Below, piece by piece: positions 1-64,000 of a stretch of 64,000 nt of DNA. Below the pieces are notes generated by a model that saw only the letters and a list, made by a program, of their open reading frames with translations, ran no database searches and was not told the DNA's origin. Source of the stretch: Ricordea florida (taxonomy: Eukaryota > Cnidaria > Anthozoa > Corallimorpharia > Ricordeidae); contig OX453279.1 in assembly GCA_949710005.1 (NCBI GenBank), positions 19,240,014-19,304,013 on the forward strand. Direction: 5' to 3'. A program made the position numbers and the translations under genes. The number at the start of each line of letters is the position of its first letter. The stretch's first letter is position 1.

Positions 1-121
1 GTAAATTAATTGTCCATTTTGCTTGTAAAATGTCAGCCTTGGAGCCAAAACCTAGCCAGTTTATCCATCCGTCGAGAGTATCTTTACCTTCAGACTTTGT
101 AGATTGGGTTGCTTTCGACAT
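1..121 (-). CDS. orfB, unit 1, partial (C-terminal part cut by window edge)
   Basis: Only the first 40 codons are inside the window. The visible part is identical to the full copies. See unit 2 for the description. Confidence 0.6.
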   Translation of the reverse strand, partial: MSKATQSTKSEGKDTLDGWINWLGFGSKADILQAKWTINL

Positions 122-194
122 CACTGTTTTCGTCTTCTTCTTTAGTGAGATCTAGAAAGAAAAATATACCATAAATAGGCTGATAGTAGGTATG

Positions 195-1028
195 TTATAA
201 AAAGTCCCGTAACTTACCGATCAAATCAACTTGAATCTTGGCGTTTCTGGTAGTTTTCAGCTTGTCCGTTTGCGTAAATGCTGCAGCAAAATTTCGCTTC
301 TCCAAGTTTAGACGCTTTGGCCGTTGTCGGGTAGCTCTTTTGAGCGCCACTTTAGCTTTGGCAGCAGCGTTGTCAATCAACGACTTGTCAGGAGTCTTCC
401 GGACGAAATAAGTGATTCTTTCATCGCCTTCTCTAAGTGTCGGATTTAGAGTGGCAGTTTTAATTCCGCGCCCTGGGGAGCTAGACTGACCGTCGTTTAG
501 GATCTCGAAAAGTTCACGATAATCCATATCTCTGGAATAGAGATATTCGGGCCTTTTTTCAATGCTGGAATCGTTTTCTAAGGCCATTTTAGTACTAAGA
601 ATAGTAATATTCTTAGCGTCCTCCTCCAAGGCCGGCCATAATACACGAAGGAAACCATCGACGTTATACTTCTCGTCATCAGACGGATAAAACACTTCGA
701 CCTCTTGAAAACGATATCGCAGATTAGTTTTCTGCCACACGATAGATATGACACGCAGTTTGACAAGGTCACCAGCTTTTTTTCCAGCATCGGGATAACA
801 CGTGAACATCCAATTATAACTACGTGGGAGAGGTGAAACGTGCGGCTCATAATACTCGAAGCTTTTAACGAAAGCGCTCTCGCTCAAATAGCCTTTCGAT
901 TCAATAAAGGCTCTGTAACTCCCTTCTCGTTCTATCCACTTCGATTTGATGCCAAAAGCGACTAACTGTTTAAACTCGTCGCTTGTTTTCGATAAGAAAT
1001 TGATGAGTTGCTGTATACGTGAAGCCAT
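195..1028 (-). CDS. orfA, unit 1, unknown protein
   Basis: Intact copy of 277 codons from ATG at 1028. The predicted 66-nt intron is at 152-217. The downstream orfC lies outside the window. Confidence 0.7.
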   Translation of the reverse strand: MASRIQQLINFLSKTSDEFKQLVAFGIKSKWIEREGSYRAFIESKGYLSESAFVKSFEYYEPHVSPLPRSYNWMFTCYPDAGKKAGDLVKLRVISIVWQKTNLRYRFQEVEVFYPSDDEKYNVDGFLRVLWPALEEDAKNITILSTKMALENDSSIEKRPEYLYSRDMDYRELFEILNDGQSSSPGRGIKTATLNPTLREGDERITYFVRKTPDKSLIDNAAAKAKVALKRATRQRPKRLNLEKRNFAAAFTQTDKLKTTRNAKIQVDLIGKLRDFL

Positions 1029-1034
1029 GTTTGC

Positions 1035-1066
1035 AAATGAATAAAAGCCACACGGGTCTGAATATA
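1035..1066 (-). promoter_or_regulatory. Candidate TATA/initiator core promoter of unit 1 orfA
   Basis: On the minus strand, TATATT (1066-1061) is 28 nt upstream of the A in TCATTT (1040-1035). TCATTT matches the arthropod initiator consensus TCAKTY at the expected spacing. The ATG follows about 10 nt later with A at -3 and G at +4. The implied 5' UTR is very short, so the real start could lie farther upstream. The arrangement is repeated in all units except for a 1-nt deletion in unit 4. Confidence 0.35.
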
Positions 1067-1072
1067 ACAAAC

Positions 1073-1078
1073 TTTATT
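1073..1078 (-). terminator. AATAAA poly(A) signal for unit 2 transcripts
   Basis: AATAAA on the minus strand is the first canonical poly(A) hexamer after the orfC-2 stop, beyond the minisatellite, and is followed by T/G-rich sequence. Cleavage here would fall inside the promoter of unit 1, so the end of one unit and the start of the next overlap. The same hexamer recurs in every unit, 45 to 50 nt upstream of the orfA ATG. Confidence 0.5.
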
Positions 1079-1133
1079 AACAAGAATAACTGGTTCTAAA
1101 AACTTGTTTGACCGCGTCTAAAAACCGGTTTGA

Positions 1134-1253
1134 CTGGTTATGCTAATTGAAAACCGGTTATGCAAATTGAAAACCGGTTATGCAAATTGAAAACCGGTTA
1201 TGCAAATTGAAAACCGGTTATGCAAATTGAAAACCGGTTATGCAAATTGAAAA
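1134..1253. repeat. 20-bp minisatellite, 6 monomers (between units 1 and 2)
   Basis: Plus-strand monomer CCGGTTATGCAAATTGAAAA. The first monomer (1134-1153), nearest the orfA promoter, is a variant reading CTGG...GCTAAT; the next five are canonical. Each canonical junction creates the palindrome AACCGGTT, which is the Grainyhead/CP2-family consensus. It is followed directly by ATGCAAAT, the POU/Oct octamer. A further AACCGGTTT lies just outside at 1123-1131. Likely an enhancer-like control region; an iteron-type origin is the alternative. It falls in the predicted 3' UTR of the upstream unit. Confidence 0.95.
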
Positions 1254-1260
1254 ACTTATA

Positions 1261-2478
1261 TCACAGCGTATTTAATCTGTGCGTGTTCTGCCTTTCTATC
1301 AGTTCGTTGATTTCCTCCTCGAGTAAATCTACGTAATGAACCCTGTAGACAAACTGCACTTTTCCCAAGGGTTTTTGACCGTAAGCTGAAGCTCCCTGCA
1401 TTTCTCCTACCATTAACGTGTTTAAAACTAAACTTAAATTTTCTAACAGCAAGCCATGTCCCGCACCGTCAGTAAATTTAAATTCCTGAATTTGTTTTCC
1501 TTTGCGATAAAACATAGGAACGCCACTCGCTGCATTAGGCAAGTCCCACGAAATAATTCCTGGCGGTTCCATCTCTAACTCTGCCACAAAAGGACCAGAA
1601 AATTTGAGCGCTCCAGGATCGGCAAAAGAAATTACCTTATCGCCAGTACTATTGACAGTAACATCTACTCCTACCTCCTGGATTCCAATAACGCCAGCTA
1701 AAGCGCCTTCATTTACAATATCACCCGTAAGATTTCCTTCGGGAAAAGTAATTTCAGCTTCAGGAGCTTTGATTTCTCCTGTAAGGGTTGCTTTCATTTT
1801 CATTTCGCCTGAATTACCTGCATTTGAAGGCCAGAAAGCGGCTTCTAGTAACCTGGCTTCTAATATCTTTTGTGTGCCTTCTTCAAAGCGAATGTAGTCT
1901 AAATATTCCGAGTTTGTAACGGGACTGTAACTGGGAAATACATTCTGAGGCGTTTTTACAACTTCAACATCGGGTTCAACTTTCGCATCAATAATACTTG
2001 CATAATATTCAACCCACTGACCTGTCATGCCGCTCTCATAATCATGAAAATAATTCGCTTCGGGAAAAGAAATTACCGCTCTAAGCAATTCTATTTTAGG
2101 TTTTCTAAATTTCTTTTGAATTTCTTTGGGTGTAAATTGCATGGCGATCATCATCAAGAAGTTTGGATCTTCTAAAGGATCGTTGTAAAAATTCATCTTG
2201 AAACTAATGACCTTCCACTCTTCATCTTTCTGATCTACTGTCTCAAATGGCAGATCTAAATATTTCTGTAACACAAACAGGCCGCTTTTTCCCGTTAAGT
2301 TTAATGGATCTTTACGGCCTATTATTGTACTATTACTAGATCTACTGGCTCTTCTTTTCTTCGGTCCATCTACAGAATCAAATGGCTTTAGTCCAGTCAA
2401 TTTTCCTTCATGATATGCACGCTTTCCTGCTGCCACACGGTTGGGATTTTTAGTCTTCTTCGTCTTCTTTTCTGTCAA
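1261..2478 (-). CDS. orfC, unit 2: large basic-armed protein, possibly capsid-like (reference copy)
   Basis: Open frame of 405 codons with no cysteine. Residues 2-26 are Lys/Arg-rich and residues 39-46 (PKKRRASR) look like a nuclear localisation signal or nucleic-acid-binding arm. Residues about 66-345 are rich in predicted beta strands, with a Gly/Glu/Pro-rich stretch at 225-305. Residues 369-382 (KPLGKVQFVYRVHY) resemble the terminal strand pattern G-x-hydrophobic-x-hydrophobic-x-Y-x-V of single jelly-roll virus capsid proteins. Residues 384-397 form an acidic helix. The apparent first codon is TTG, with an in-frame TAA 15 nt upstream, so direct initiation is unlikely. A CAG acceptor at 2472-2474, exon starting at 2471, is in phase with the orfA donor and would add orfA residues 1-270. 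The alternatives are +1 frameshifting from orfB, which overlaps by 29 nt, or initiation at Met95. This copy has Ile53, Val180 and His400 (CAC). No family was firmly recognised. Confidence 0.75.
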   Translation of the reverse strand: MTEKKTKKTKNPNRVAAGKRAYHEGKLTGLKPFDSVDGPKKRRASRSSNSTIIGRKDPLNLTGKSGLFVLQKYLDLPFETVDQKDEEWKVISFKMNFYNDPLEDPNFLMMIAMQFTPKEIQKKFRKPKIELLRAVISFPEANYFHDYESGMTGQWVEYYASIIDAKVEPDVEVVKTPQNVFPSYSPVTNSEYLDYIRFEEGTQKILEARLLEAAFWPSNAGNSGEMKMKATLTGEIKAPEAEITFPEGNLTGDIVNEGALAGVIGIQEVGVDVTVNSTGDKVISFADPGALKFSGPFVAELEMEPPGIISWDLPNAASGVPMFYRKGKQIQEFKFTDGAGHGLLLENLSLVLNTLMVGEMQGASAYGQKPLGKVQFVYRVHYVDLLEEEINELIERQNTHRLNTL

Positions 2479-2848
2479 CAGTAATTTCGGAAATTACAAG
2501 TGGAAACTTAGCAAGAGAAGTTTCGATAGCAGCTCCAGAAAGCATTTTTTTTACAGGATTGTACAACATTGTAAACTGAGTTTCCTTGCCGGGCAAGGCT
2601 TCACATTCATAAATGCCAAAGAAAAGTTTTGGCGTTGCGTTACAATCTTCTATAGGTGAAATCATGAATTCTACCATTTGCTCTATTTTCTTGCCAGGAT
2701 CGTCTAAACAATCCCAAGTTACAGTTTGTAAATTAATTGTCCATTTTGCTTGTAAAATGTCAGCCTTGGAGCCAAAACCTAGCCAGTTTATCCATCCGTC
2801 GAGAGTATCTTTACCTTCAGACTTTGTAGATTGGGTTGCTTTCGACAT
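2450..2848 (-). CDS. orfB, unit 2: small beta-rich acidic-tailed protein (reference copy)
   Basis: 132 aa from ATG at 2848; a GTG immediately upstream extends the frame but is not a likely eukaryotic start. The N terminus (1-15) is polar. Residues 17-45 contain four Trp (19, 22, 36, 45). Cysteines are at 47, 69 and 82. Residues 74-124 look beta-rich, and the last eight residues are almost all charged (R126 to D132). There is no signal peptide or membrane segment. The family was not recognised. The frame is open from just after the intron-1 acceptor, and its 3' end overlaps orfC by 29 nt in another frame. It could be translated from a downstream start on the orfA message or from the internal TATA-like element at 2922-2926. 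Intron 2 would remove most of it, so orfB and the orfC fusion would come from different messages. Confidence 0.65.
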   Translation of the reverse strand: MSKATQSTKSEGKDTLDGWINWLGFGSKADILQAKWTINLQTVTWDCLDDPGKKIEQMVEFMISPIEDCNATPKLFFGIYECEALPGKETQFTMLYNPVKKMLSGAAIETSLAKFPLVISEITVDRKEDEED

Positions 2849-2878
2849 CACTGTTTTCGTCTTCTTCTTTAGTGAGAT

Positions 2879-2944
2879 CTAGAAAGAAAAATATACCATA
2901 AATAGGCTGATAGTAGGTATGTTATAAAAAGTCCCGTAACTTAC
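2879..2944 (-). other. Predicted intron 1 (66 nt) at the 3' end of orfA
   Basis: The donor reads G|GTAAGT after the ATC codon for Ile270, and the acceptor is TTTTTCTTTCTAG, both close to ideal. Removal replaces the unspliced last seven codons of orfA with a 20-residue tail ending at the stop at 2817-2819. That tail is strongly acidic, in contrast to the basic residues 224-262 before it. The intron is present in all 24 units at 43 nt below to 22 nt above the unspliced orfA stop. Confidence 0.75.
2922..2926 (-). promoter_or_regulatory. Possible internal TATA box for orfB
   Basis: The minus strand reads TTTTTATAAC inside intron 1, about 75 nt upstream of the orfB ATG. It could give a separate orfB message, but it coincides with the unspliced orfA stop and an A/T-rich intron, so chance is a fair explanation. 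Confidence 0.2.
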
Positions 2945-3755
2945 CGATCAAATCAACTTGAATCTTGGCGTTTCTGGTAGTTTTCAGCTTGTCCGTTTGC
3001 GTAAATGCTGCAGCAAAATTTCGCTTCTCCAAGTTTAGACGCTTTGGCCGTTGTCGGGTAGCTCTTTTGAGCGCCACTTTAGCTTTGGCAGCAGCGTTGT
3101 CAATCAACGACTTGTCAGGAGTCTTCCGGACGAAATAAGTGATTCTTTCATCGCCTTCTCTAAGTGTCGGATTTAGAGTGGCAGTCTTAATTCCGCGCCC
3201 TGGGGAGCTAGACTGACCGTCGTTTAGGATCTCGAAAAGTTCACGATAATCCATATCTCTGGAATAGAGATATTCGGGCCTTTTTTCAATGCTGGAATCG
3301 TTTTCTAAGGCCATTTTAGTACTAAGAATAGTAATATTCTTAGCGTCCTCCTCCAAGGCCGGCCATAATACACGAAGGAAACCATCGACGTTATACTTCT
3401 CGTCATCAGACGGATAAAACACTTCGACCTCTTGAAAACGATATCGCAGATTAGTTTTCTGCCACACGATAGATATGACACGCAGTTTGACAAGGTCACC
3501 AGCTTTTTTTCCAGCATCGGGATAACACGTGAACATCCAATTATAACTACGTGGGAGAGGTGAAACGTGCGGCTCATAATACTCGAAGCTTTTAACGAAA
3601 GCGCTCTCGCTCAAATAGCCTTTCGATTCAATAAAGGCTCTGTAACTCCCTTCTCGTTCTATCCACTTCGATTTGATGCCAAAAGCGACTAACTGTTTAA
3701 ACTCGTCGCTTGTTTTCGATAAGAAATTGATGAGTTGCTGTATACGTGAAGCCAT
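2922..3755 (-). CDS. orfA, unit 2: unknown protein with basic C-terminal region (reference copy)
   Basis: 277 codons from the ATG at 3755, which has a strong Kozak context; the open frame extends 14 codons farther to a TTG that is not a likely start. Residues 1-60 look alpha-helical. Residues 66-135 alternate hydrophobic and polar residues as beta strands would, with aromatic residues such as W73, W98 and W131. Residues 182-188 are a Ser/Gly loop. Residues 224-262 are strongly basic (K/R at 230, 231, 234, 236, 238, 239, 244, 245), suggesting nuclear import or nucleic-acid binding. The single cysteine is C77. No HUH nickase, Walker A or phospholipase motif is present, and the family was not recognised. 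Exon 1 ends after Ile270, and the protein is then continued either by the 20-residue acidic tail (intron 1) or by orfC (intron 2). Codon 190 is AAG here, as in units 4 and 14; other copies have AAA. Confidence 0.72.
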   Translation of the reverse strand: MASRIQQLINFLSKTSDEFKQLVAFGIKSKWIEREGSYRAFIESKGYLSESAFVKSFEYYEPHVSPLPRSYNWMFTCYPDAGKKAGDLVKLRVISIVWQKTNLRYRFQEVEVFYPSDDEKYNVDGFLRVLWPALEEDAKNITILSTKMALENDSSIEKRPEYLYSRDMDYRELFEILNDGQSSSPGRGIKTATLNPTLREGDERITYFVRKTPDKSLIDNAAAKAKVALKRATRQRPKRLNLEKRNFAAAFTQTDKLKTTRNAKIQVDLIGKLRDFL

Positions 3756-3787
3756 GTTTGCAAATGAATAAAAGCCACACGGGTCTG

Positions 3788-3805
3788 AATATAACAAACT
3801 TTATT
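3788..3805 (-). promoter_or_regulatory. Overlapping AATAAA (unit 3 messages) and TATATT (unit 2 promoter)
   Basis: AATAAA (3805-3800) and TATATT (3793-3788) lie within 18 nt. The initiator-like TCATTT follows at 3767-3762. This is the best-defined instance of the shared terminator/promoter block present in every unit. Confidence 0.4.
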
Positions 3806-3860
3806 AACAAGAATAACTGGTTCTAAAAACTTGTTTGACCGCGTCTAAAAACCGGTTTGA

Positions 3861-4000
3861 CTGGTTATGCTAATTGAAAACCGGTTATGCAAATTGAAAA
3901 CCGGTTATGCAAATTGAAAACCGGTTATGCAAATTGAAAACCGGTTATGCAAATTGAAAACCGGTTATGCAAATTGAAAACCGGTTATGCAAATTGAAAA
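3861..4000. repeat. 20-bp minisatellite, 7 monomers
   Basis: One promoter-proximal GCTAAT variant followed by six canonical monomers. Confidence 0.95.
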
Positions 4001-4007
4001 ACTTATA

Positions 4008-5225
4008 TCACAGCGTATTTAATCTCTGCGTGTTCTGCCTTTCTATCAGTTCGTTGATTTCCTCCTCGAGTAAATCTACGTAATGAACCCTGTAGACAAA
4101 CTGCACTTTTCCCAAGGGTTTTTGACCGTAAGCTGAAGCTCCCTGCATTTCTCCTACCATTAACGTGTTTAAAACTAAACTTAAATTTTCTAACAGCAAG
4201 CCATGTCCCGCACCGTCAGTAAATTTAAATTCCTGAATTTGTTTTCCTTTGCGATAAAACATAGGAACGCCACTCGCTGCATTAGGCAAGTCCCACGAAA
4301 TAATTCCTGGCGGTTCCATCTCTAACTCTGCCACAAAAGGACCAGAAAATTTGAGCGCTCCAGGATCGGCAAAAGAAATTACCTTATCGCCAGTACTATT
4401 GACAGTAACATCTACTCCTACCTCCTGGATTCCAATAACGCCAGCTAAAGCGCCTTCATTTACAATATCACCCGTAAGATTTCCTTCGGGAAAAGTAATT
4501 TCAGCTTCAGGAGCTTTGATTTCTCCTGTAAGGGTTGCTTTCATTTTCATTTCGCCTGAATTACCTGCATTTGAAGGCCAGAAAGCGGCTTCTAGTAACC
4601 TGGCTTCTAATATCTTTTGTGTGCCTTCTTCAAAGCGAATGTAGTCTAAATATTCCGAGTTTGTAACGGGACTGTAACTGGGAAATGCATTCTGAGGCGT
4701 TTTTACAACTTCAACATCGGGTTCAACTTTCGCATCAATAATACTTGCATAATATTCAACCCACTGACCTGTCATGCCGCTCTCATAATCATGAAAATAA
4801 TTCGCTTCGGGAAAAGAAATTACCGCTCTAAGCAATTCTATTTTAGGTTTTCTAAATTTCTTTTGAATTTCTTTGGGTGTAAATTGCATGGCGATCATCA
4901 TCAAGAAGTTTGGATCTTCTAAAGGATCGTTGTAAAAATTCATCTTGAAACTAATGACCTTCCACTCTTCATCTTTCTGATCTACTGTCTCAAATGGCAG
5001 ATCTAAATATTTCTGTAACACAAACAGGCCGCTTTTTCCCGTTAAGTTTAATGGATCTTTACGGCCTATTATTGTACTATTACTAGATCTACTGGCTCTT
5101 CTTTTCTTCGGTCCATCTACAGAATCAAATGGCTTTAGTCCAGTCAATTTTCCTTCATGATATGCACGCTTTCCTGCTGCCACACGGTTGGGATTTTTAG
5201 TCTTCTTCGTCTTCTTTTCTGTCAA
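4008..5225 (-). CDS. orfC, unit 3
   Basis: Intact. Ile53, Ala180, Gln400. Predicted exon starts at 5218. Carries the Ala180 variant shared with units 5, 14 and 15. Confidence 0.75.
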   Translation of the reverse strand: MTEKKTKKTKNPNRVAAGKRAYHEGKLTGLKPFDSVDGPKKRRASRSSNSTIIGRKDPLNLTGKSGLFVLQKYLDLPFETVDQKDEEWKVISFKMNFYNDPLEDPNFLMMIAMQFTPKEIQKKFRKPKIELLRAVISFPEANYFHDYESGMTGQWVEYYASIIDAKVEPDVEVVKTPQNAFPSYSPVTNSEYLDYIRFEEGTQKILEARLLEAAFWPSNAGNSGEMKMKATLTGEIKAPEAEITFPEGNLTGDIVNEGALAGVIGIQEVGVDVTVNSTGDKVISFADPGALKFSGPFVAELEMEPPGIISWDLPNAASGVPMFYRKGKQIQEFKFTDGAGHGLLLENLSLVLNTLMVGEMQGASAYGQKPLGKVQFVYRVHYVDLLEEEINELIERQNTQRLNTL

Positions 5226-5595
5226 CAGTAATTTCGGAAATTACAAGTGGAAACTTAGCAAGAGAAGTTTCGATAGCAGCTCCAGAAAGCATTTTTTTTA
5301 CAGGATTGTACAACATTGTAAACTGAGTTTCCTTGCCGGGCAAGGCTTCACATTCATAAATGCCAAAGAAAAGTTTTGGCGTTGCGTTACAATCTTCTAT
5401 AGGTGAAATCATGAATTCTACCATTTGCTCTATTTTCTTGCCAGGATCGTCTAAACAATCCCAAGTTACAGTTTGTAAATTAATTGTCCATTTTGCTTGT
5501 AAAATGTCAGCCTTGGAGCCAAAACCTAGCCAGTTTATCCATCCGTCGAGAGTATCTTTACCTTCAGACTTTGTAGATTGGGTTGCTTTCGACAT
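5197..5595 (-). CDS. orfB, unit 3
   Basis: Intact 132 aa, identical in protein to unit 2. Confidence 0.65.
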   Translation of the reverse strand: MSKATQSTKSEGKDTLDGWINWLGFGSKADILQAKWTINLQTVTWDCLDDPGKKIEQMVEFMISPIEDCNATPKLFFGIYECEALPGKETQFTMLYNPVKKMLSGAAIETSLAKFPLVISEITVDRKEDEED

Positions 5596-5668
5596 CACTG
5601 TTTTCGTCTTCTTCTTTAGTGAGATCTAGAAAGAAAAATATACCATAAATAGGCTGATAGTAGGTATG

Positions 5669-6502
5669 TTATAAAAAGTCCCGTAACTTACCGATCAAAT
5701 CAACTTGAATCTTGGCGTTTCTGGTAGTTTTCAGCTTGTCCGTTTGCGTAAATGCTGCAGCAAAATTTCGCTTCTCCAAGTTTAGACGCTTTGGCCGTTG
5801 TCGGGTAGCTCTTTTGAGCGCCACTTTAGCTTTGGCAGCAGCGTTGTCAATCAACGACTTGTCAGGAGTCTTCCGGACGAAATAAGTGATTCTTTCATCG
5901 CCTTCTCTAAGTGTCGGATTTAGAGTGGCAGTTTTAATTCCGCGCCCTGGGGAGCTAGACTGACCGTCGTTTAGGATCTCGAAAAGTTCACGATAATCCA
6001 TATCTCTGGAATAGAGATATTCGGGCCTTTTTTCAATGCTGGAATCGTTTTCTAAGGCCATTTTAGTACTAAGAATAGTAATATTCTTAGCGTCCTCCTC
6101 CAAGGCCGGCCATAATACACGAAGGAAACCATCGACGTTATACTTCTCGTCATCAGACGGATAAAACACTTCGACCTCTTGAAAACGATATCGCAGATTA
6201 GTTTTCTGCCACACGATAGATATGACACGCAGTTTGACAAGGTCACCAGCTTTTTTTCCAGCATCGGGATAACACGTGAACATCCAATTATAACTACGTG
6301 GGAGAGGTGAAACGTGCGGCTCATAATACTCGAAGCTTTTAACGAAAGCGCTCTCGCTCAAATAGCCTTTCGATTCAATAAAGGCTCTGTAACTCCCTTC
6401 TCGTTCTATCCACTTCGATTTGATGCCAAAAGCGACTAACTGTTTAAACTCGTCGCTTGTTTTCGATAAGAAATTGATGAGTTGCTGTATACGTGAAGCC
6501 AT
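5669..6502 (-). CDS. orfA, unit 3
   Basis: Intact, 277 codons. Intron 1 at 5626-5691. AAA at codon 190. Confidence 0.7.
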   Translation of the reverse strand: MASRIQQLINFLSKTSDEFKQLVAFGIKSKWIEREGSYRAFIESKGYLSESAFVKSFEYYEPHVSPLPRSYNWMFTCYPDAGKKAGDLVKLRVISIVWQKTNLRYRFQEVEVFYPSDDEKYNVDGFLRVLWPALEEDAKNITILSTKMALENDSSIEKRPEYLYSRDMDYRELFEILNDGQSSSPGRGIKTATLNPTLREGDERITYFVRKTPDKSLIDNAAAKAKVALKRATRQRPKRLNLEKRNFAAAFTQTDKLKTTRNAKIQVDLIGKLRDFL

Positions 6503-6607
6503 GTTTGCAAATGAATAAAAGCCACACGGGTCTGAATATAACAAACTTTATTAACAAGAATAACTGGTTCTAAAAACTTGTTTGACCGCGTCTAAAAACC
6601 GGTTTGA

Positions 6608-6707
6608 CTGGTTATGCTAATTGAAAACCGGTTATGCAAATTGAAAACCGGTTATGCAAATTGAAAACCGGTTATGCAAATTGAAAACCGGTTATGCAAA
6701 TTGAAAA
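6608..6707. repeat. 20-bp minisatellite, 5 monomers
   Basis: Variant first monomer plus four canonical. Confidence 0.95.
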
Positions 6708-6714
6708 ACTTATA

Positions 6715-7932
6715 TCACAGCGTATTTAATCTCTGCGTGTTCTGCCTTTCTATCAGTTCGTTGATTTCCTCCTCGAGTAAATCTACGTAATGAACCCTGT
6801 AGACAAACTGCACTTTTCCCAAGGGTTTTTGACCGTAAGCTGAAGCTCCCTGCATTTCTCCTACCATTAACGTGTTTAAAACTAAACTTAAATTTTCTAA
6901 CAGCAAGCCATGTCCCGCACCGTCAGTAAATTTAAATTCCTGAATTTGTTTTCCTTTGCGATAAAACATAGGAACGCCACTCGCTGCATTAGGCAAGTCC
7001 CACGAAATAATTCCTGGCGGTTCCATCTCTAACTCTGCCACAAAAGGACCAGAAAATTTGAGCGCTCCAGGATCGGCAAAAGAAATTACCTTATCGCCAG
7101 TACTATTGACAGTAACATCTACTCCTACCTCCTGGATTCCAATAACGCCAGCTAAAGCGCCTTCATTTACAATATCACCCGTAAGATTTCCTTCGGGAAA
7201 AGTAATTTCAGCTTCAGGAGCTTTGATTTCTCCTGTAAGGGTTGCTTTCATTTTCATTTCGCCTGAATTACCTGCATTTGAAGGCCAGAAAGCGGCTTCT
7301 AGTAACCTGGCTTCTAATATCTTTTGTGTGCCTTCTTCAAAGCGAATGTAGTCTAAATATTCCGAGTTTGTAACGGGACTGTAACTGGGAAATACATTCT
7401 GAGGCGTTTTTACAACTTCAACATCGGGTTCAACTTTCGCATCAATAATACTTGCATAATATTCAACCCACTGACCTGTCATGCCGCTCTCATAATCATG
7501 AAAATAATTCGCTTCGGGAAAAGAAATTACCGCTCTAAGCAATTCTATTTTAGGTTTTCTAAATTTCTTTTGAATTTCTTTGGGTGTAAATTGCATGGCG
7601 ATCATCATCAAGAAGTTTGGATCTTCTAAAGGATCGTTGTAAAAATTCATCTTGAAACTAATGACCTTCCACTCTTCATCTTTCTGATCTACTGTCTCAA
7701 ATGGCAGATCTAAATATTTCTGTAACACAAACAGGCCGCTTTTTCCCGTTAAGTTTAATGGATCTTTACGGCCTATTATTGTACTATTACTAGATCTACT
7801 GGCTCTTCTTTTCTTCGGTCCATCTACAGAATCAAATGGCTTTAGTCCAGTCAATTTTCCTTCATGATATGCACGCTTTCCTGCTGCCACACGGTTGGGA
7901 TTTTTAGTCTTCTTCGTCTTCTTTTCTGTCAA
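6715..7932 (-). CDS. orfC, unit 4
   Basis: Intact. Ile53, Val180, Gln400. Predicted exon starts at 7925. Confidence 0.75.
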   Translation of the reverse strand: MTEKKTKKTKNPNRVAAGKRAYHEGKLTGLKPFDSVDGPKKRRASRSSNSTIIGRKDPLNLTGKSGLFVLQKYLDLPFETVDQKDEEWKVISFKMNFYNDPLEDPNFLMMIAMQFTPKEIQKKFRKPKIELLRAVISFPEANYFHDYESGMTGQWVEYYASIIDAKVEPDVEVVKTPQNVFPSYSPVTNSEYLDYIRFEEGTQKILEARLLEAAFWPSNAGNSGEMKMKATLTGEIKAPEAEITFPEGNLTGDIVNEGALAGVIGIQEVGVDVTVNSTGDKVISFADPGALKFSGPFVAELEMEPPGIISWDLPNAASGVPMFYRKGKQIQEFKFTDGAGHGLLLENLSLVLNTLMVGEMQGASAYGQKPLGKVQFVYRVHYVDLLEEEINELIERQNTQRLNTL

Positions 7933-8302
7933 CAGTAATTTCGGAAATTACAAGTGGAAACTTAGCAAGAGAAGTTTCGATAGCAGCTCCAGAAAGCATT
8001 TTTTTTACAGGATTGTACAACATTGTAAACTGAGTTTCCTTGCCGGGCAAGGCTTCACATTCATAAATGCCAAAGAAAAGTTTTGGCGTTGCGTTACAAT
8101 CTTCTATAGGTGAAATCATGAATTCTACCATTTGCTCTATTTTCTTGCCAGGATCGTCTAAACAATCCCAAGTTACAGTTTGTAAATTAATTGTCCATTT
8201 TGCTTGTAAAATGTCAGCCTTGGAGCCAAAACCTAGCCAGTTTATCCATCCGTCGAGAGTATCTTTACCTTCAGACTTTGTAGATTGGGTTGCTTTCGAC
8301 AT
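7904..8302 (-). CDS. orfB, unit 4
   Basis: Intact 132 aa, no protein change. Confidence 0.65.
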   Translation of the reverse strand: MSKATQSTKSEGKDTLDGWINWLGFGSKADILQAKWTINLQTVTWDCLDDPGKKIEQMVEFMISPIEDCNATPKLFFGIYECEALPGKETQFTMLYNPVKKMLSGAAIETSLAKFPLVISEITVDRKEDEED

Positions 8303-8375
8303 CACTGTTTTCGTCTTCTTCTTTAGTGAGATCTAGAAAGAAAAATATACCATAAATAGGCTGATAGTAGGTATG

Positions 8376-50477: not shown

Positions 50478-50484
50478 ACTTATA

Positions 50485-53084: not shown

Positions 53085-53204
53085 CTGGTTATGCTAATTG
53101 AAAACCGGTTATGCAAATTGAAAACCGGTTATGCAAATTGAAAACCGGTTATGCAAATTGAAAACCGGTTATGCAAATTGAAAACCGGTTATGCAAATTG
53201 AAAA
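53085..53204. repeat. 20-bp minisatellite, 6 monomers
   Basis: Variant first monomer plus five canonical. Confidence 0.95.
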
Positions 53205-53211
53205 ACTTATA

Positions 53212-54429: not shown

Positions 54430-54799
54430 CAGTAATTTCGGAAATTACAAGTGGAAACTTAGCAAGAGAAGTTTCGATAGCAGCTCTAGAAAGCATTTTT
54501 TTTACAGGATTGTACAACATTGTAAACTGAGTTTCCTTGCCGGGCAAGGCTTCACATTCATAAATGCCAAAGAAAAGTTTTGGCGTTGCGTTACAATCTT
54601 CTATAGGTGAAATCATGAATTCTACCATTTGCTCTATTTTCTTGCCAGGATCGTCTAAACAATCCCAAGTTACAGTTTGTAAATTAATTGTCCATTTTGC
54701 TTGTAAAATGTCAGCCTTGGAGCCAAAACCTAGCCAGTTTATCCATCCGTCGAGAGTATCTTTACCTTCAGACTTTGTAGATTGGGTTGCTTTCGACAT
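54401..54799 (-). CDS. orfB, unit 21
   Basis: Intact with Gly105Arg, as in unit 19. Confidence 0.65.
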   Translation of the reverse strand: MSKATQSTKSEGKDTLDGWINWLGFGSKADILQAKWTINLQTVTWDCLDDPGKKIEQMVEFMISPIEDCNATPKLFFGIYECEALPGKETQFTMLYNPVKKMLSRAAIETSLAKFPLVISEITVDRKEDEED

Positions 54800-54872
54800 C
54801 ACTGTTTTCGTCTTCTTCTTTAGTGAGATCTAGAAAGAAAAATATACCATAAATAGGCTGATAGTAGGTATG

Positions 54873-55706: not shown

Positions 55707-55811
55707 GTTTGCAAATGAATAAAAGCCACACGGGTCTGAATATAACAAACTTTATTAACAAGAATAACTGGTTCTAAAAACTTGTTTGACCGCGTCTAAA
55801 AACCGGTTTGA

Positions 55812-55931
55812 CTGGTTATGCTAATTGAAAACCGGTTATGCAAATTGAAAACCGGTTATGCAAATTGAAAACCGGTTATGCAAATTGAAAACCGGTTATG
55901 CAAATTGAAAACCGGTTATGCAAATTGAAAA
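55812..55931. repeat. 20-bp minisatellite, 6 monomers
   Basis: Variant first monomer plus five canonical. Confidence 0.95.
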
Positions 55932-55938
55932 ACTTATA

Positions 55939-57156
55939 TCACAGCGTATTTAATCTCTGCGTGTTCTGCCTTTCTATCAGTTTGTTGATTTCCTCCTCGA
56001 GTAAATCTACGTAATGAACCCTGTAGACAAACTGCACTTTTCCCAAGGGTTTTTGACCGTAAGCTGAAGCTCCCTGCATTTCTCCTACCATTAACGTGTT
56101 TAAAACTAAACTTAAATTTTCTAACAGCAAGCCATGTCCCGCACCGTCAGTAAATTTAAATTCCTGAATTTGTTTTCCTTTGCGATAAAACATAGGAACG
56201 CCACTCGCTGCATTAGGCAAGTCCCACGAAATAATTCCTGGCGGTTCCATCTCTAACTCTGCCACAAAAGGACCAGAAAATTTGAGCGCTCCAGGATCGG
56301 CAAAAGAAATTACCTTATCGCCAGTACTATTGACAGTAACATCTACTCCTACCTCCTGGATTCCAATAACGCCAGCTAAAGCGCCTTCATTTACAATATC
56401 ACCCGTAAGATTTCCTTCGGGAAAAGTAATTTCAGCTTCAGGAGCTTTGATTTCTCCTGTAAGGGTTGCTTTCATTTTCATTTCGCCTGAATTACCTGCA
56501 TTTGAAGGCCAGAAAGCGGCTTCTAGTAACCTGGCTTCTAATATCTTTTGTGTGCCTTCTTCAAAGCGAATGTAGTCTAAATATTCCGAGTTTGTAACGG
56601 GACTGTAACTGGGAAATACATTCTGAGGCGTTTTTACAACTTCAACATCGGGTTCAACTTTCGCATCAATAATACTTGCATAATATTCAACCCACTGACC
56701 TGTCATGCCGCTCTCATAATCATGAAAATAATTCGCTTCGGGAAAAGAAATTACCGCTCTAAGCAATTCTATTTTAGGTTTTCTAAATTTCTTTTGAATT
56801 TCTTTGGGTGTAAATTGCATGGCGATCATCATCAAGAAGTTTGGATCTTCTAAAGGATCGTTGTAAAAATTCATCTTGAAACTAATGACCTTCCACTCTT
56901 CATCTTTCTGATCTACTGTCTCAAATGGCAGATCTAAATATTTCTGTAACACAAACAGGCCGCTTTTTCCCGTTAAGTTTAATGGATCTTTACGGCCCAT
57001 TATTGTACTATTACTAGATCTACTGGCTCTTCTTTTCTTCGGTCCATCTACAGAATCAAATGGCTTTAGTCCAGTCAATTTTCCTTCATGATATGCACGC
57101 TTTCCTGCTGCCACACGGTTGGGATTTTTAGTCTTCTTCGTCTTCTTTTCTGTCAA
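55939..57156 (-). CDS. orfC, unit 22
   Basis: Intact. Met53, Lys392, as in unit 20. Predicted exon starts at 57149. Confidence 0.75.
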   Translation of the reverse strand: MTEKKTKKTKNPNRVAAGKRAYHEGKLTGLKPFDSVDGPKKRRASRSSNSTIMGRKDPLNLTGKSGLFVLQKYLDLPFETVDQKDEEWKVISFKMNFYNDPLEDPNFLMMIAMQFTPKEIQKKFRKPKIELLRAVISFPEANYFHDYESGMTGQWVEYYASIIDAKVEPDVEVVKTPQNVFPSYSPVTNSEYLDYIRFEEGTQKILEARLLEAAFWPSNAGNSGEMKMKATLTGEIKAPEAEITFPEGNLTGDIVNEGALAGVIGIQEVGVDVTVNSTGDKVISFADPGALKFSGPFVAELEMEPPGIISWDLPNAASGVPMFYRKGKQIQEFKFTDGAGHGLLLENLSLVLNTLMVGEMQGASAYGQKPLGKVQFVYRVHYVDLLEEEINKLIERQNTQRLNTL

Positions 57157-57526
57157 CAGTAATTTCGGAAATTACAAGTGGAAACTTAGCAAGAGAAGTT
57201 TCGATAGCAGCTCCAGAAAGCATTTTTTTTACAGGATTGTACAACATTGTAAACTGAGTTTCCTTGCCGGGCAAGGCTTCACATTCATAAATGCCAAAGA
57301 AAAGTTTTGGCGTTGCGTTACAATCTTCTATAGGTGAAATCATGAATTCTACCATTTGCTCTATTTTCTTGCCAGGATCGTCTAAACAATCCCAAGTTAC
57401 AGTTTGTAAATTAATTGTCCATTTTGCTTGTAAAATGTCAGCCTTGGAGCCAAAACCTAGCCAGTTTATCCATCCGTCGAGAGTATCTTTACCTTCAGAC
57501 TTTGTAGATTGGGTTGCTTTCGACAT
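57128..57526 (-). CDS. orfB, unit 22
   Basis: Intact 132 aa, Gly105. Confidence 0.65.
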   Translation of the reverse strand: MSKATQSTKSEGKDTLDGWINWLGFGSKADILQAKWTINLQTVTWDCLDDPGKKIEQMVEFMISPIEDCNATPKLFFGIYECEALPGKETQFTMLYNPVKKMLSGAAIETSLAKFPLVISEITVDRKEDEED

Positions 57527-57599
57527 CACTGTTTTCGTCTTCTTCTTTAGTGAGATCTAGAAAGAAAAATATACCATAAATAGGCTGATAGTAGGTATG

Positions 57600-58433
57600 T
57601 TATAAAAAGTCCCGTAACTTACCGATCAAATCAACTTGAATCTTGGCGTTTCTGGTAGTTTTCAGCTTGTCCGTTTGCGTAAATGCTGCAGCAAAATTTC
57701 GCTTCTCCAAGTTTAGACGCTTTGGCCGTTGTCGGGTAGCTCTTTTGAGCGCCACTTTAGCTTTGGCAGCAGCGTTGTCAATCAACGACTTGTCAGGAGT
57801 CTTCCGGACGAAATAAGTGATTCTTTCATCGCCTTCTCTAAGTGTCGGATTTAGAGTGGCAGTTTTAATTCCGCGCCCTGGGGAGCTAGACTGACCGTCG
57901 TTTAGGATCTCGAAAAGTTCACGATAATCCATATCTCTGGAATAGAGATATTCGGGCCTTTTTTCAATGCTGGAATCGTTTTCTAAGGCCATTTTAGTAC
58001 TAAGAATAGTAATATTCTTAGCGTCCTCCTCCAAGGCCGGCCATAATACACGAAGGAAACCATCGACGTTATACTTCTCGTCATCAGACGGATAAAACAC
58101 TTCGACCTCTTGAAAACGATATCGCAGATTAGTTTTCTGCCACACGATAGATATGACACGCAGTTTGACAAGGTCACCAGCTTTTTTTCCAGCATCGGGA
58201 TAACACGTGAACATCCAATTATAACTACGTGGGAGAGGTGAAACGTGCGGCTCATAATACTCGAAGCTTTTAACGAAAGCGCTCTCGCTCAAATAGCCTT
58301 TCGATTCAATAAAGGCTCTGTAACTCCCTTCTCGTTCTATCCACTTCGATTTGATGCCAAAAGCGACTAACTGTTTAAACTCGTCGCTTGTTTTCGATAA
58401 GAAATTGATGAGTTGCTGTATACGTGAAGCCAT
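57600..58433 (-). CDS. orfA, unit 22
   Basis: Intact, common protein form. Intron 1 at 57557-57622. Confidence 0.7.
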   Translation of the reverse strand: MASRIQQLINFLSKTSDEFKQLVAFGIKSKWIEREGSYRAFIESKGYLSESAFVKSFEYYEPHVSPLPRSYNWMFTCYPDAGKKAGDLVKLRVISIVWQKTNLRYRFQEVEVFYPSDDEKYNVDGFLRVLWPALEEDAKNITILSTKMALENDSSIEKRPEYLYSRDMDYRELFEILNDGQSSSPGRGIKTATLNPTLREGDERITYFVRKTPDKSLIDNAAAKAKVALKRATRQRPKRLNLEKRNFAAAFTQTDKLKTTRNAKIQVDLIGKLRDFL

Positions 58434-58538
58434 GTTTGCAAATGAATAAAAGCCACACGGGTCTGAATATAACAAACTTTATTAACAAGAATAACTGGTT
58501 CTAAAAACTTGTTTGACCGCGTCTAAAAACCGGTTTGA

Positions 58539-58658
58539 CTGGTTATGCTAATTGAAAACCGGTTATGCAAATTGAAAACCGGTTATGCAAATTGAAAACC
58601 GGTTATGCAAATTGAAAACCGGTTATGCAAATTGAAAACCGGTTATGCAAATTGAAAA
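58539..58658. repeat. 20-bp minisatellite, 6 monomers
   Basis: Variant first monomer plus five canonical. Confidence 0.95.
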
Positions 58659-58665
58659 ACTTATA

Positions 58666-59883
58666 TCACAGCGTATTTAATCTCTGCGTGTTCTGCCTTT
58701 CTATCAGTTTGTTGATTTCCTCCTCGAGTAAATCTACGTAATGAACCCTGTAGACAAACTGCACTTTTCCCAAGGGTTTTTGACCGTAAGCTGAAGCTCC
58801 CTGCATTTCTCCTACCATTAACGTGTTTAAAACTAAACTTAAATTTTCTAACAGCAAGCCATGTCCCGCACCGTCAGTAAATTTAAATTCCTGAATTTGT
58901 TTTCCTTTGCGATAAAACATAGGAACGCCACTCGCTGCATTAGGCAAGTCCCACGAAATAATTCCTGGCGGTTCCATCTCTAACTCTGCCACAAAAGGAC
59001 CAGAAAATTTGAGCGCTCCAGGATCGGCAAAAGAAATTACCTTATCGCCAGTACTATTGACAGTAACATCTACTCCTACCTCCTGGATTCCAATAACGCC
59101 AGCTAAAGCGCCTTCATTTACAATATCACCCGTAAGATTTCCTTCGGGAAAAGTAATTTCAGCTTCAGGAGCTTTGATTTCTCCTGTAAGGGTTGCTTTC
59201 ATTTTCATTTCGCCTGAATTACCTGCATTTGAAGGCCAGAAAGCGGCTTCTAGTAACCTGGCTTCTAATATCTTTTGTGTGCCTTCTTCAAAGCGAATGT
59301 AGTCTAAATATTCCGAGTTTGTAACGGGACTGTAACTGGGAAATACATTCTGAGGCGTTTTTACAACTTCAACATCGGGTTCAACTTTCGCATCAATAAT
59401 ACTTGCATAATATTCAACCCACTGACCTGTCATGCCGCTCTCATAATCATGAAAATAATTCGCTTCGGGAAAAGAAATTACCGCTCTAAGCAATTCTATT
59501 TTAGGTTTTCTAAATTTCTTTTGAATTTCTTTGGGTGTAAATTGCATGGCGATCATCATCAAGAAGTTTGGATCTTCTAAAGGATCGTTGTAAAAATTCA
59601 TCTTGAAACTAATGACCTTCCACTCTTCATCTTTCTGATCTACTGTCTCAAATGGCAGATCTAAATATTTCTGTAACACAAACAGGCCGCTTTTTCCCGT
59701 TAAGTTTAATGGATCTTTACGGCCTATTATTGTACTATTACTAGATCTACTGGCTCTTCTTTTCTTCGGTCCATCTACAGAATCAAATGGCTTTAGTCCA
59801 GTCAATTTTCCTTCATGATATGCACGCTTTCCTGCTGCCACACGGTTGGGATTTTTAGTCTTCTTCGTCTTCTTTTCTGTCAA
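58666..59883 (-). CDS. orfC, unit 23
   Basis: Intact. Ile53, Val180, Glu392Lys, Gln400, without Thr11/Asp24. Predicted exon starts at 59876. Last of five successive Lys392 copies. Confidence 0.75.
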   Translation of the reverse strand: MTEKKTKKTKNPNRVAAGKRAYHEGKLTGLKPFDSVDGPKKRRASRSSNSTIIGRKDPLNLTGKSGLFVLQKYLDLPFETVDQKDEEWKVISFKMNFYNDPLEDPNFLMMIAMQFTPKEIQKKFRKPKIELLRAVISFPEANYFHDYESGMTGQWVEYYASIIDAKVEPDVEVVKTPQNVFPSYSPVTNSEYLDYIRFEEGTQKILEARLLEAAFWPSNAGNSGEMKMKATLTGEIKAPEAEITFPEGNLTGDIVNEGALAGVIGIQEVGVDVTVNSTGDKVISFADPGALKFSGPFVAELEMEPPGIISWDLPNAASGVPMFYRKGKQIQEFKFTDGAGHGLLLENLSLVLNTLMVGEMQGASAYGQKPLGKVQFVYRVHYVDLLEEEINKLIERQNTQRLNTL

Positions 59884-61265: not shown

Positions 61266-61365
61266 CTGGTTATGCTAATTGAAAACCGGTTATGCAAATT
61301 GAAAACCGGTTATGCAAATTGAAAACCGGTTATGCAAATTGAAAACCGGTTATGCAAATTGAAAA
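61266..61365. repeat. 20-bp minisatellite, 5 monomers
   Basis: Variant first monomer plus four canonical. Between this array and the orfA-23 ATG, one base differs from other units (TTTCACCGCG for TTTGACCGCG at about 61242). Confidence 0.95.
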
Positions 61366-61372
61366 ACTTATA

Positions 61373-62590
61373 TCACAGCGTATTTAATCTCTGCGTGTTC
61401 TGCCTTTCTATCAGTTCGTTGATTTCCTCCTCGAGTAAATCTACGTAATGAACCCTGTAGACAAACTGCACTTTTCCCAAGGGTTTTTGACCGTAAGCTG
61501 AAGCTCCCTGCATTTCTCCTACCATTAACGTGTTTAAAACTAAACTTAAATTTTCTAACAGCAAGCCATGTCCCGCACCGTCAGTAAATTTAAATTCCTG
61601 AATTTGTTTTCCTTTGCGATAAAACATAGGAACGCCACTCGCTGCATTAGGCAAGTCCCACGAAATAATTCCTGGCGGTTCCATCTCTAACTCTGCCACA
61701 AAAGGACCAGAAAATTTGAGCGCTCCAGGATCGGCAAAAGAAATTACCTTATCGCCAGTACTATTGACAGTAACATCTACTCCTACCTCCTGGATTCCAA
61801 TAACGCCAGCTAAAGCGCCTTCATTTACAATATCACCCGTAAGATTTCCTTCGGGAAAAGTAATTTCAGCTTCAGGAGCTTTGATTTCTCCTGTAAGGGT
61901 TGCTTTCATTTTCATTTCGCCTGAATTACCTGCATTTGAAGGCCAGAAAGCGGCTTCTAGTAACCTGGCTTCTAATATCTTTTGTGTGCCTTCTTCAAAG
62001 CGAATGTAGTCTAAATATTCCGAGTTTGTAACGGGACTGTAACTGGGAAATACATTCTGAGGCGTTTTTACAACTTCAACATCGGGTTCAACTTTCGCAT
62101 CAATAATACTTGCATAATATTCAACCCACTGACCTGTCATGCCGCTCTCATAATCATGAAAATAATTCGCTTCGGGAAAAGAAATTACCGCTCTAAGCAA
62201 TTCTATTTTAGGTTTTCTAAATTTCTTTTGAATTTCTTTGGGTGTAAATTGCATGGCGATCATCATCAAGAAGTTTGGATCTTCTAAAGGATCGTTGTAA
62301 AAATTCATCTTGAAACTAATGACCTTCCACTCTTCATCTTTCTGATCTACTGTCTCAAATGGCAGATCTAAATATTTCTGTAACACAAACAGGCCGCTTT
62401 TTCCCGTTAAGTTTAATGGATCTTTACGGCCTATTATTGTACTATTACTAGATCTACTGGCTCTTCTTTTCTTCGGTCCATCTACAGAATCAAATGGCTT
62501 TAGTCCAGTCAATTTTCCTTCATGATATGCACGCTTTCCTGCTGCCACACGGTTGGGATTTTTAGTCTTCTTCGTCTTCTTTTCTGTCAA
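61373..62590 (-). CDS. orfC, unit 24
   Basis: Intact. Ile53, Val180, Glu392, Gln400. Predicted exon starts at 62583. Confidence 0.75.
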   Translation of the reverse strand: MTEKKTKKTKNPNRVAAGKRAYHEGKLTGLKPFDSVDGPKKRRASRSSNSTIIGRKDPLNLTGKSGLFVLQKYLDLPFETVDQKDEEWKVISFKMNFYNDPLEDPNFLMMIAMQFTPKEIQKKFRKPKIELLRAVISFPEANYFHDYESGMTGQWVEYYASIIDAKVEPDVEVVKTPQNVFPSYSPVTNSEYLDYIRFEEGTQKILEARLLEAAFWPSNAGNSGEMKMKATLTGEIKAPEAEITFPEGNLTGDIVNEGALAGVIGIQEVGVDVTVNSTGDKVISFADPGALKFSGPFVAELEMEPPGIISWDLPNAASGVPMFYRKGKQIQEFKFTDGAGHGLLLENLSLVLNTLMVGEMQGASAYGQKPLGKVQFVYRVHYVDLLEEEINELIERQNTQRLNTL

Positions 62591-62960
62591 CAGTAATTTC
62601 GGAAATTACAAGTGGAAACTTAGCAAGAGAAGTTTCGATAGCAGCTCCAGAAAGCATTTTTTTTACAGGATTGTACAACATTGTAAACTGAGTTTCCTTG
62701 CCGGGCAAGGCTTCACATTCATAAATGCCAAAGAAAAGTTTTGGCGTTGCGTTACAATCTTCTATAGGTGAAATCATGAATTCTACCATTTGCTCTATTT
62801 TCTTGCCAGGATCGTCTAAACAATCCCAAGTTACAGTTTGTAAATTAATTGTCCATTTTGCTTGTAAAATGTCAGCCTTGGAGCCAAAACCTAGCCAGTT
62901 TATCCATCCGTCGAGAGTATCTTTACCTTCAGACTTTGTAGATTGGGTTGCTTTCGACAT
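62562..62960 (-). CDS. orfB, unit 24
   Basis: Intact 132 aa, no protein change. Confidence 0.65.
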   Translation of the reverse strand: MSKATQSTKSEGKDTLDGWINWLGFGSKADILQAKWTINLQTVTWDCLDDPGKKIEQMVEFMISPIEDCNATPKLFFGIYECEALPGKETQFTMLYNPVKKMLSGAAIETSLAKFPLVISEITVDRKEDEED

Positions 62961-63033
62961 CACTGTTTTCGTCTTCTTCTTTAGTGAGATCTAGAAAGAA
63001 AAATATACCATAAATAGGCTGATAGTAGGTATG

Positions 63034-63867
63034 TTATAAAAAGTCCCGTAACTTACCGATCAAATCAACTTGAATCTTGGCGTTTCTGGTAGTTTTCAGC
63101 TTGTCCGTTTGCGTAAATGCTGCAGCAAAATTTCGCTTCTCCAAGTTTAGACGCTTTGGCCGTTGTCGGGTAGCTCTTTTGAGCGCCACTTTAGCTTTGG
63201 CAGCAGCGTTGTCAATCAACGACTTGTCAGGAGTCTTCCGGACGAAATAAGTGATTCTTTCATCGCCTTCTCTAAGTGTCGGATTTAGAGTGGCAGTTTT
63301 AATTCCGCGCCCTGGGGAGCTAGACTGACCGTCGTTTAGGATCTCGAAAAGTTCACGATAATCCATATCTCTGGAATAGAGATATTCGGGCCTTTTTTCA
63401 ATGCTGGAATCGTTTTCTAAGGCCATTTTAGTACTAAGAATAGTAATATTCTTAGCGTCCTCCTCCAAGGCCGGCCATAATACACGAAGGAAACCATCGA
63501 CGTTATACTTCTCGTCATCAGACGGATAAAACACTTCGACCTCTTGAAAACGATATCGCAGATTAGTTTTCTGCCACACGATAGATATGACACGCAGTTT
63601 GACAAGGTCACCAGCTTTTTTTCCAGCATCGGGATAACACGTGAACATCCAATTATAACTACGTGGGAGAGGTGAAACGTGCGGCTCATAATACTCGAAG
63701 CCTTTAACGAAAGCGCTCTCGCTCAAATAGCCTTTCGATTCAATAAAGGCTCTGTAACTCCCTTCTCGTTCTATCCACTTCGATTTGATGCCAAAAGCGA
63801 CTAACTGTTTAAACTCGTCGCTTGTTTTCGATAAGAAATTGATGAGTTGCTGTATACGTGAAGCCAT
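63034..63867 (-). CDS. orfA, unit 24
   Basis: Intact with Ser56Gly. Intron 1 at 62991-63056. Confidence 0.7.
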   Translation of the reverse strand: MASRIQQLINFLSKTSDEFKQLVAFGIKSKWIEREGSYRAFIESKGYLSESAFVKGFEYYEPHVSPLPRSYNWMFTCYPDAGKKAGDLVKLRVISIVWQKTNLRYRFQEVEVFYPSDDEKYNVDGFLRVLWPALEEDAKNITILSTKMALENDSSIEKRPEYLYSRDMDYRELFEILNDGQSSSPGRGIKTATLNPTLREGDERITYFVRKTPDKSLIDNAAAKAKVALKRATRQRPKRLNLEKRNFAAAFTQTDKLKTTRNAKIQVDLIGKLRDFL

Positions 63868-63972
63868 GTTTGCAAATGAATAAAAGCCACACGGGTCTGA
63901 ATATAACAAACTTTATTAACAAGAATAACTGGTTCTAAAAACTTGTTTGACCGCGTCTAAAAACCGGTTTGA

Positions 63973-64000
63973 CTGGTTATGCTAATTGAAAACCGGTTAT
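63973..64000. repeat. 20-bp minisatellite, cut by window edge
   Basis: The variant first monomer and the start of a canonical one are visible, so the array continues beyond the window. Confidence 0.9.

Follow-up and report, generated by a model that had tools for sequence, protein, structure and literature searches.

How a corallimorph chromosome came to carry a long tandem array of a small, gene-packed unit, and what that unit is, are the questions raised by a stretch of 64,000 nucleotides (nt) from the genome of Ricordea florida, referred to as the window (contig OX453279.1, here C8, one of 48 in this 537.8-Mb genome; positions 19,240,014-19,304,013). A sequence-only reading had proposed an amplified virus-like element of small-circular-genome size or, alternatively, host genes derived from such an element. 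The first proposal is supported by permuted single units elsewhere in the genome, by purifying selection, by a weak capsid-like fold and by relatives on contigs of 1.9-3.1 kb. The second is not favoured, as the dispersed copies are themselves cut through their genes and the same assembly holds an empty site. The unit probably represents an undescribed virus-like element of small circular DNA, either as its whole genome or as a single segment that carries the capsid, and this element would have been repeatedly integrated by end-joining; we infer both the circularity and the capsid role. The lineage is probably new to description and present here in two forms, one being diverged single copies in permuted order and the other a megasatellite.

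The window lies in the interior of the larger C8 array and is itself a tandem array (1..64000) of 23.5 units of ~2.73 kb with their genes on the minus strand. Autocorrelation of the 64-kb window gave peaks at 5,454 and 2,727, the former being the higher. The units, counted as 24 copies each of open reading frame 1 (ORF1), its intron and the control region, 23 copies of ORF2 and 23 full plus one partial copy of ORF3, fill the whole window head to tail without any N. This confirms the tandem array and its uninterrupted tiling as previously read; the count of 24 repeats does not stand and becomes 23.5 units. Nearly all gene copies in the window are >99.6% identical, with 0 to 4 base differences per gene relative to the first copy. 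Exceptions are three damaged copies: an ORF2 with a 1-nt deletion (14855-16071), an ORF1 with a 40-bp duplication (19222-20092) and an ORF2 with a 99-bp in-frame duplication (39478-40794). Differences among the window units comprise 15 amino-acid-changing and 3 silent ones, as would be seen after a recent amplification under little selection, and CpG is undepleted (1.06).

Variant sharing between units was assessed at seven of nine variable sites (one was left out as a duplicate pattern and one for its three states; 23-long patterns were padded to 24). At lag 1, 31 differences were counted versus 42.1 after permutation (31 of 5000 permutations as low), and at lag 2, 27 versus 40.2 (5 of 5000). 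No sharing beyond chance was found among the window units at lags 3, 4 and 6. The variants common to neighbouring units at lags 1 and 2 indicate that exchange or local duplication shaped the array. At 47758-58666, five consecutive units carry E392K, and N11T, E24D and G106R occur in the units at 47758 and 53212, alternating by unit; this is a young dimeric higher-order repeat.

A representative unit (1026..3755, minus strand; the others follow at ~2,727-bp steps) is 90% coding, in agreement with the earlier description of the unit as almost wholly protein-coding. Its stop-free frames of 410, 277 and 142 codons exceed what 500 shufflings of its sequence produced: there, the longest frame had a median of 78 and a maximum of 176 codons, and the third-longest reached at most 94. 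ORF1 (3755-2922, minus strand) encodes 277 amino acids (aa) when unspliced, has an isoelectric point (pI) of 9.5 and is possibly DNA-binding. ORF3 (2848-2450, minus strand) encodes an acidic protein of 132 aa (pI 4.6) and matches ORF1 and ORF2 in codon usage solely when read in its own frame. ORF2 (2478-1261, minus strand) comprises 405 aa counted from a TTG at 2478, its 410-codon open frame ending at 1261. It has a basic N-terminus, a conserved core, a variable middle and a conserved C-terminus (DGAGHG, YRxHYV), and contains PKKRR, which we take to be a motif resembling a nuclear localization signal (NLS). The three frames had been described as overlapping; as frames they hold against the shuffles, and the overlaps are short, at 32 nt between the spliced tail of ORF1 and ORF3 and 29 nt between ORF3 and ORF2, the latter taken from the TTG.

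None of the three proteins has a family match in Pfam or PHROGs or a signal or membrane stretch by hydropathy. A known multicopy host family, such as a cluster of secreted or structural proteins, is thus not what these searches returned. Likewise, no transposase, integrase or reverse transcriptase was found in the unit with Pfam, and the three frames hold no domain that would contradict the earlier statement that genes for replication, recombination and mobility are lacking.

At least six diverged loci lie outside the array (C1:13.02, C1:13.06, C5:15.49, C8:18.04, C14:11.67 and C14:11.70 Mb). The copy at C1:13.02 runs from ORF1 (aa 209-277) through ORF3, ORF2 and the control region to ORF1 (aa 1-200) and equals one unit opened inside ORF1. 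Both C14 copies (C14a and C14b) show the order late ORF3, ORF2, control region, ORF1, early ORF3, equal to one unit opened inside ORF3, with ~160-175 nt of ORF3 unaligned. The C5 copy is a fragment that extends from nt 104 of ORF1 to nt 899 of ORF2. Unit-length, circularly permuted insertions, the pattern looked for in a circular element, are hence present in three of these four loci, which are the ones read. Around each of the four, no tandem unit was found in the 10-20 kb read, and neither the flanks of C14a and C14b nor those of C14a and C5 match. Such permuted single units are what circles give, whereas random pieces of an old array should include some longer than a unit; there is none among the four loci read, few as they are.

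The aligned protein pieces of the dispersed copies are 57-82% identical to those of the array, and the synonymous divergence (dS) among the array, C1, C14a, C14b and C5 ranges from 0.63 to beyond saturation. The ratio of nonsynonymous to synonymous divergence (dN/dS), calculated from one aligned stretch per gene and locus, is 0.05-0.15 for ORF1, 0.02-0.06 for ORF2 and 0.08-0.27 for ORF3 where computable, four saturated pairs being without value. No stop occurs in any aligned frame of the four loci. The three genes are under purifying selection between diverged copies. As ORF1 is broken in the C1 copy, and ORF2 in the C5 copy, this constraint most likely predates insertion and acted on an element living elsewhere.

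The whole array occupies C8 18,897,070-19,342,533 in two blocks (18,897,070-19,093,992 and 19,129,768-19,342,533) that together span 409.7 kb, or ~150 units by length if unbroken inside; outside the window, most of it was taken from search matches and from the ends rather than from base-by-base reading. It is cut inside ORF3 at the left end and inside ORF2 at the right end, and both outer ends run into host DNA without a gap, which places an endogenous element between host sequences in the chromosome. The flanks have a G+C content of 37-40%. On the left, a BEL/Pao-like integrase is encoded (Integrase_H2C2; rve below its cut-off), and on the right DUF1759, a reverse-transcriptase match just below the cut-off and a Peptidase_A17 of Pao type. 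As the BEL/Pao pol domains are split over both flanks, the array sits inside pol.

Between the two blocks, and after a gap of 200 N, lie ~35.6 kb of other DNA, all but about 9 kb of which were read. Both flanks recur in this segment, the left one at 99.99% identity over 8,308 bp and the right one at 99.96% over 9,200 bp. In the middle of the segment, the left flank is 100% identical over 4,672 bp up to C8 18,897,068, adjoining the left end of the array, and is followed by 851 bp and then by the right flank from 19,342,568 at 100% identity over 3,477 bp. Near-identical flanks joined across 851 bp mean that the same assembly holds a site without the array. The open frames at this empty site measure 550 and 1,017 codons versus 362 and 917 in the array flanks, as expected of an uninterrupted BEL/Pao element. 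Relative to the empty site, the array locus is without 851 bp of the target and carries 34 bp of AAATT-rich filler, and no target-site duplication was found when the array ends were compared with it; loss, filler and missing duplication together point to end-joining rather than to a transposase. The simplest account is that scaffolding placed an empty allele within the array; a recent flank duplication or mosaicism would look alike. The 200-N gap after block 1 (L034:1493-1692) and a fold-back of array sequence at the junction of the empty-site segment with block 2 (L035:9200-9290) are probably scaffolding artefacts.

The ends of the array bear directly on whether the array could be largely an artefact of assembly. 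Such an origin would fit the 200-N gap, at which one inner end stops, and the intervening 35.6 kb, which in the part read duplicate both flanks almost exactly and may be either an empty-site contig put in the wrong place or a segmental duplication. The outer ends, in contrast, are junctions in host DNA reached without a gap, the window is free of N, and its units differ by variants shared between neighbours, so that an artefact of this extent is highly improbable.

A genome search with ORF1 gave at least 150 matches, at least 145 of them in the array, with no stop among the array matches listed; the window copy of ORF1 with the 40-bp duplication is absent from the ORF1 matches listed, and damaged copies are thus under-counted. 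In a search for ORF2 with its relative P0003 (111 scored of 353 candidates), 91 of the 107 array matches listed keep the 410-codon frame, while 14 share a frame of 198 codons and the remaining two have 375 and 178 codons. The 14 listed copies with the shorter frame lie at C8 18,994,471-19,217,794 and represent a damaged variant multiplied inside the array.

The large number of ORF1 copies open without stops, together with the share of full-length ORF2 frames, could suggest domesticated viral genes, the array then being a selectively maintained host locus for the bulk production of particles or proteins. We regard this as quite unlikely. Copies so alike stay open without selection, the window variants are mostly amino-acid-changing (15 versus 3 silent), the dispersed relatives are permuted or truncated, and an empty site with near flanks of 100% identity is found in the same assembly.

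Searches with the ORF2 protein gave five relatives, and seven when an alignment was used. Among the close ones, P0001 (90%) is an ORF2 relative and P0006 (13,770-bp contig) carries the same ORF1. P0007 and the C14b locus are 100% identical, P0008 and the second C1 locus 97%, and P0002 and P0007 are both on 12,807-bp contigs; these three ENA entries, P0002, P0007 and P0008, were not counted as independent relatives and probably stem from other assemblies of the same species or of one very close to it. Distant ORF2 relatives, with similar conserved ends and a variable middle, are P0003-P0005 and P0009-P0010. Their longest contigs measure 1,945, 3,146, 3,147, 2,467 and 2,507 bp, a range of 1.9-3.1 kb that is expected of a circle or of a collapsed repeat. 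The protein call of P0004 opens with a hydrophobic stretch that resembles an intron end just before DVVDG, where P0003 is in frame; judged from these letters, the P0004 lineage may have a second intron upstream of the capsid core.

In the structure model of ORF2, residues 69-215 and 322-404 form a beta-rich core modelled with fair confidence; for 1-66 and 217-321 the confidence is low. The model was compared with predicted viral structures, and 23 of the best 50 of 361 matches are named: 20 are capsid or coat proteins, two are geminivirus nuclear shuttle proteins, which are relatives of capsids, and one is an uncharacterized parvovirus protein. The capsid matches come from parvo-, circo-, gemini- and polyomaviruses, circular Rep-encoding single-stranded (CRESS) DNA viruses and similar groups, with one polyomavirus VP1 among the best 50 of 361. 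As modelled, and on weak but consistent matches, ORF2 would be a divergent jelly-roll capsid protein that is not a member of the matched families.

These relatives and this fold also bear on an origin without viral ancestry, in which a host-born satellite sheds unit-length circles that reinsert. The tandem arrangement, the variants common to neighbours, the dimer-like pattern and the single reinserted units would all be compatible with it. Such an origin would not lead one to expect three genes under selection that include an intron and an NLS-like motif, nor the high dS between copies in one genome, the capsid-like fold or distant relatives in other sequence sets; we therefore hold it to be very unlikely.

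Several points count against a virus-like genome or segment. The ORF2 model is weak, with a mean predicted local distance difference test score (pLDDT) of 55.7 and a core mostly at 70-85. One of its 361 matches to viral structures (E up to 10) has E <= 0.001, and the template modelling scores (TM-scores) are <=0.35. The ORF1 model is unusable (pLDDT 41). Sequence searches of Pfam, PHROGs and PDB sequences gave no capsid family and chance-level matches at most, and no relative appeared in pattern-seeded scans of IMG/VR (ORF2, ORF1, alignments A1, A2 and A3, and P0009). Four of the six detected dispersed loci were read, those at C1:13,059,037 and C8:18,040,272 being left out; no free circle came to light, and older arrays that broke up might in principle also have left permuted single units. 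Finally, no domain of a replication-initiation protein (Rep), neither HUH endonuclease nor helicase, was found in ORF1-ORF3, and there is little room for another gene, so that autonomy is unproven. ORF1 had been considered as an HUH Rep and was dropped on reading by eye. Searches of GTDB contigs and phage records returned nothing beyond chance-level matches, and a literature search, mostly of titles and abstract openings, yielded no publication naming this element.

The missing Rep leads to a narrower form of the preferred explanation, in which the unit is a segment or satellite of a multipartite virus and the replicase is encoded on another molecule. This is a real possibility, if somewhat short of an even chance. 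Three other genes occupy ~90% of the unit, none of them with a Rep or helicase domain, and iteron-like repeats are kept in three dispersed loci. According to Tisza et al. 2020 (PMC7000223), segments of multipartite genomes may be found among dark-matter circles. On the other side, no second iteron-sharing element is known; the exact iteron occurs in no IMG/VR contig, a search that did not extend to the host genome.

The intron described earlier is borne out. A GT-AG intron of 66 nt (2944-2879, minus strand) is present in 24 of 24 window copies. All four diverged loci that were read also have an intron of 66-68 nt, in C14a with GTGAGT (by eye), together with the core of the spliced tail. The 5' site of the window intron, GTAAGT, occurs once in the unit counted, and its 3' site is one of the two with the richest pyrimidine tracts among five candidates. 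Predicted splicing replaces the ORF1 end GKLRDFL by a LIDLTKEEDENSDVESNPIYKV-like sequence. This alternative C-terminus (LIDLTKEEDENSD..., 2817..2878, minus strand) is conserved in its core in the diverged loci, while its stop differs in place among them; it resembles a SUMO-interaction motif with acidic residues after it. In the sequence, no ATG is present near the start of ORF2, which hence probably needs splicing or a non-AUG start. A candidate second 3' splice site, predicted by eye, is located at the ORF2 start (GAAATTACTGTTGACAG, 2472..2488, minus strand), and in the four diverged loci a TTTCAG, also identified by eye, ends at the equivalent position.

Iterons of 20 bp (TTTTCAATTTGCATAACCGG in gene sense; 1136..1253, minus strand) number 3 to 8 per single-unit interval in the window, which is why unit length mostly varies by multiples of 20. 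Related, iteron-like repeats are found in three diverged loci. The iteron holds ATGCAAAT (ATTTGCAT in gene sense), which we take to be a POU/octamer motif, and the junctions between iterons form the palindrome AACCGGTT. The control region between iterons and ORF1 (1026..1135; AATAAA at 1073-1078) is found in 24 copies in the window. As DNA, it folds somewhat better than its shuffles (z -2.6; 2 of 200 shuffles as stable). An origin stem-loop is not claimed, as the inverted repeats there derive from the iterons. Rfam gave no match in window positions 1-9000, and a tRNA scan found none.

A scheme consistent with these features starts from a nuclear double-stranded circle whose transcripts would originate between the iterons and ORF1. 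The end of ORF1 would be switched by splicing between GKLRDFL and the SUMO-interaction-like tail, and the second 3' splice site may yield ORF2, the putative capsid protein. ORF1, host factors or both would act at the iterons. As no replicase is encoded, replication would depend on host polymerases or on a helper segment and would produce circles and head-to-tail concatemers. Circles and one concatemer would have been captured at chromosome breaks by end-joining, and one of the insertions would be, or would through unequal exchange have become, the array of ~150 units. A stronger version, which we put forward tentatively and think rather unlikely, is a new family of animal viruses with a complete circular DNA genome of 2.5-3.1 kb that encodes a jelly-roll capsid protein and two more proteins without any replicase, copied entirely by host polymerases at the iterons, with a SUMO-tail splicing switch for regulation and with ~410 kb recently gained by this chromosome as one concatemer.

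Among known systems, CRESS-DNA viruses have a small unit and iterons. With these viruses and their endogenous copies the element shares both features as well as integrated copies, and the named weak matches of ORF2 are mostly capsids of CRESS viruses, geminiviruses and parvoviruses. It differs in that no Rep was found in the unit, that three genes lie on one strand with a small intron, and that no sequence match to a known capsid family was obtained. Anelloviruses combine a small circle without Rep with overlapping genes and splicing, and the unit resembles them in the lack of a Rep, in its overlapping genes and in its predicted splicing. To our knowledge, they are known only from vertebrates. 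The basic stretch of ORF2, however, is short and not a long arginine-rich arm, there is no Pfam match, and no anellovirus is among the 23 named of the best 50 of 361 structure matches (27 are unnamed).

Polyoma- and papilloma-like viruses have a circular genome, spliced nuclear transcripts, a jelly-roll capsid and a large T/E1 helicase. The putative circle, the splicing, the jelly-roll-like ORF2 and the NLS-like PKKRR are reminiscent of these small double-stranded DNA viruses; no large T/E1 helicase was found, the genes lie on one strand and the unit is about half the size. As a rule, small DNA viruses found integrated in genomes are solitary, ancient and defective. Endogenous viral tandem arrays are represented by geminivirus-related DNA in plants, which likewise consists of head-to-tail viral units in a chromosome. 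Unlike these, the array described here has ~150 nearly identical, mostly open units, and the assembly that contains it also holds its empty site. How a satellite array arises from viral DNA would thereby become accessible to direct study. The findings also suggest a lineage of small DNA viruses that searches with known Rep or capsid sequences would miss, and they pose the question of how a capsid-bearing circle is copied without a replicase.

The host flanks of the array are rich in mobile elements (L009:191-970, L009:2292-3455, L015:514-1536, L015:3711-4133 and L015:7681-8355), which include a Tc5/DDE_1 transposase, a chromodomain ORF, a weak THAP match, a reverse transcriptase resembling that of long interspersed elements (LINE) and a piece of a Pif1-like helicase. 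Elsewhere in the genome there are 61 matches to the green fluorescent protein (GFP) family (PF01353), a family with no match in 14 control genomes; together with the G+C content of the flanks and the look of their repeats, this fits an anthozoan host, amphioxus being GFP-rich as well. Of the 61 matches, 57 are located on C11 at 8.97-19.74 Mb. Many of them contain stops, and they form a large, partly decayed GFP gene cluster.

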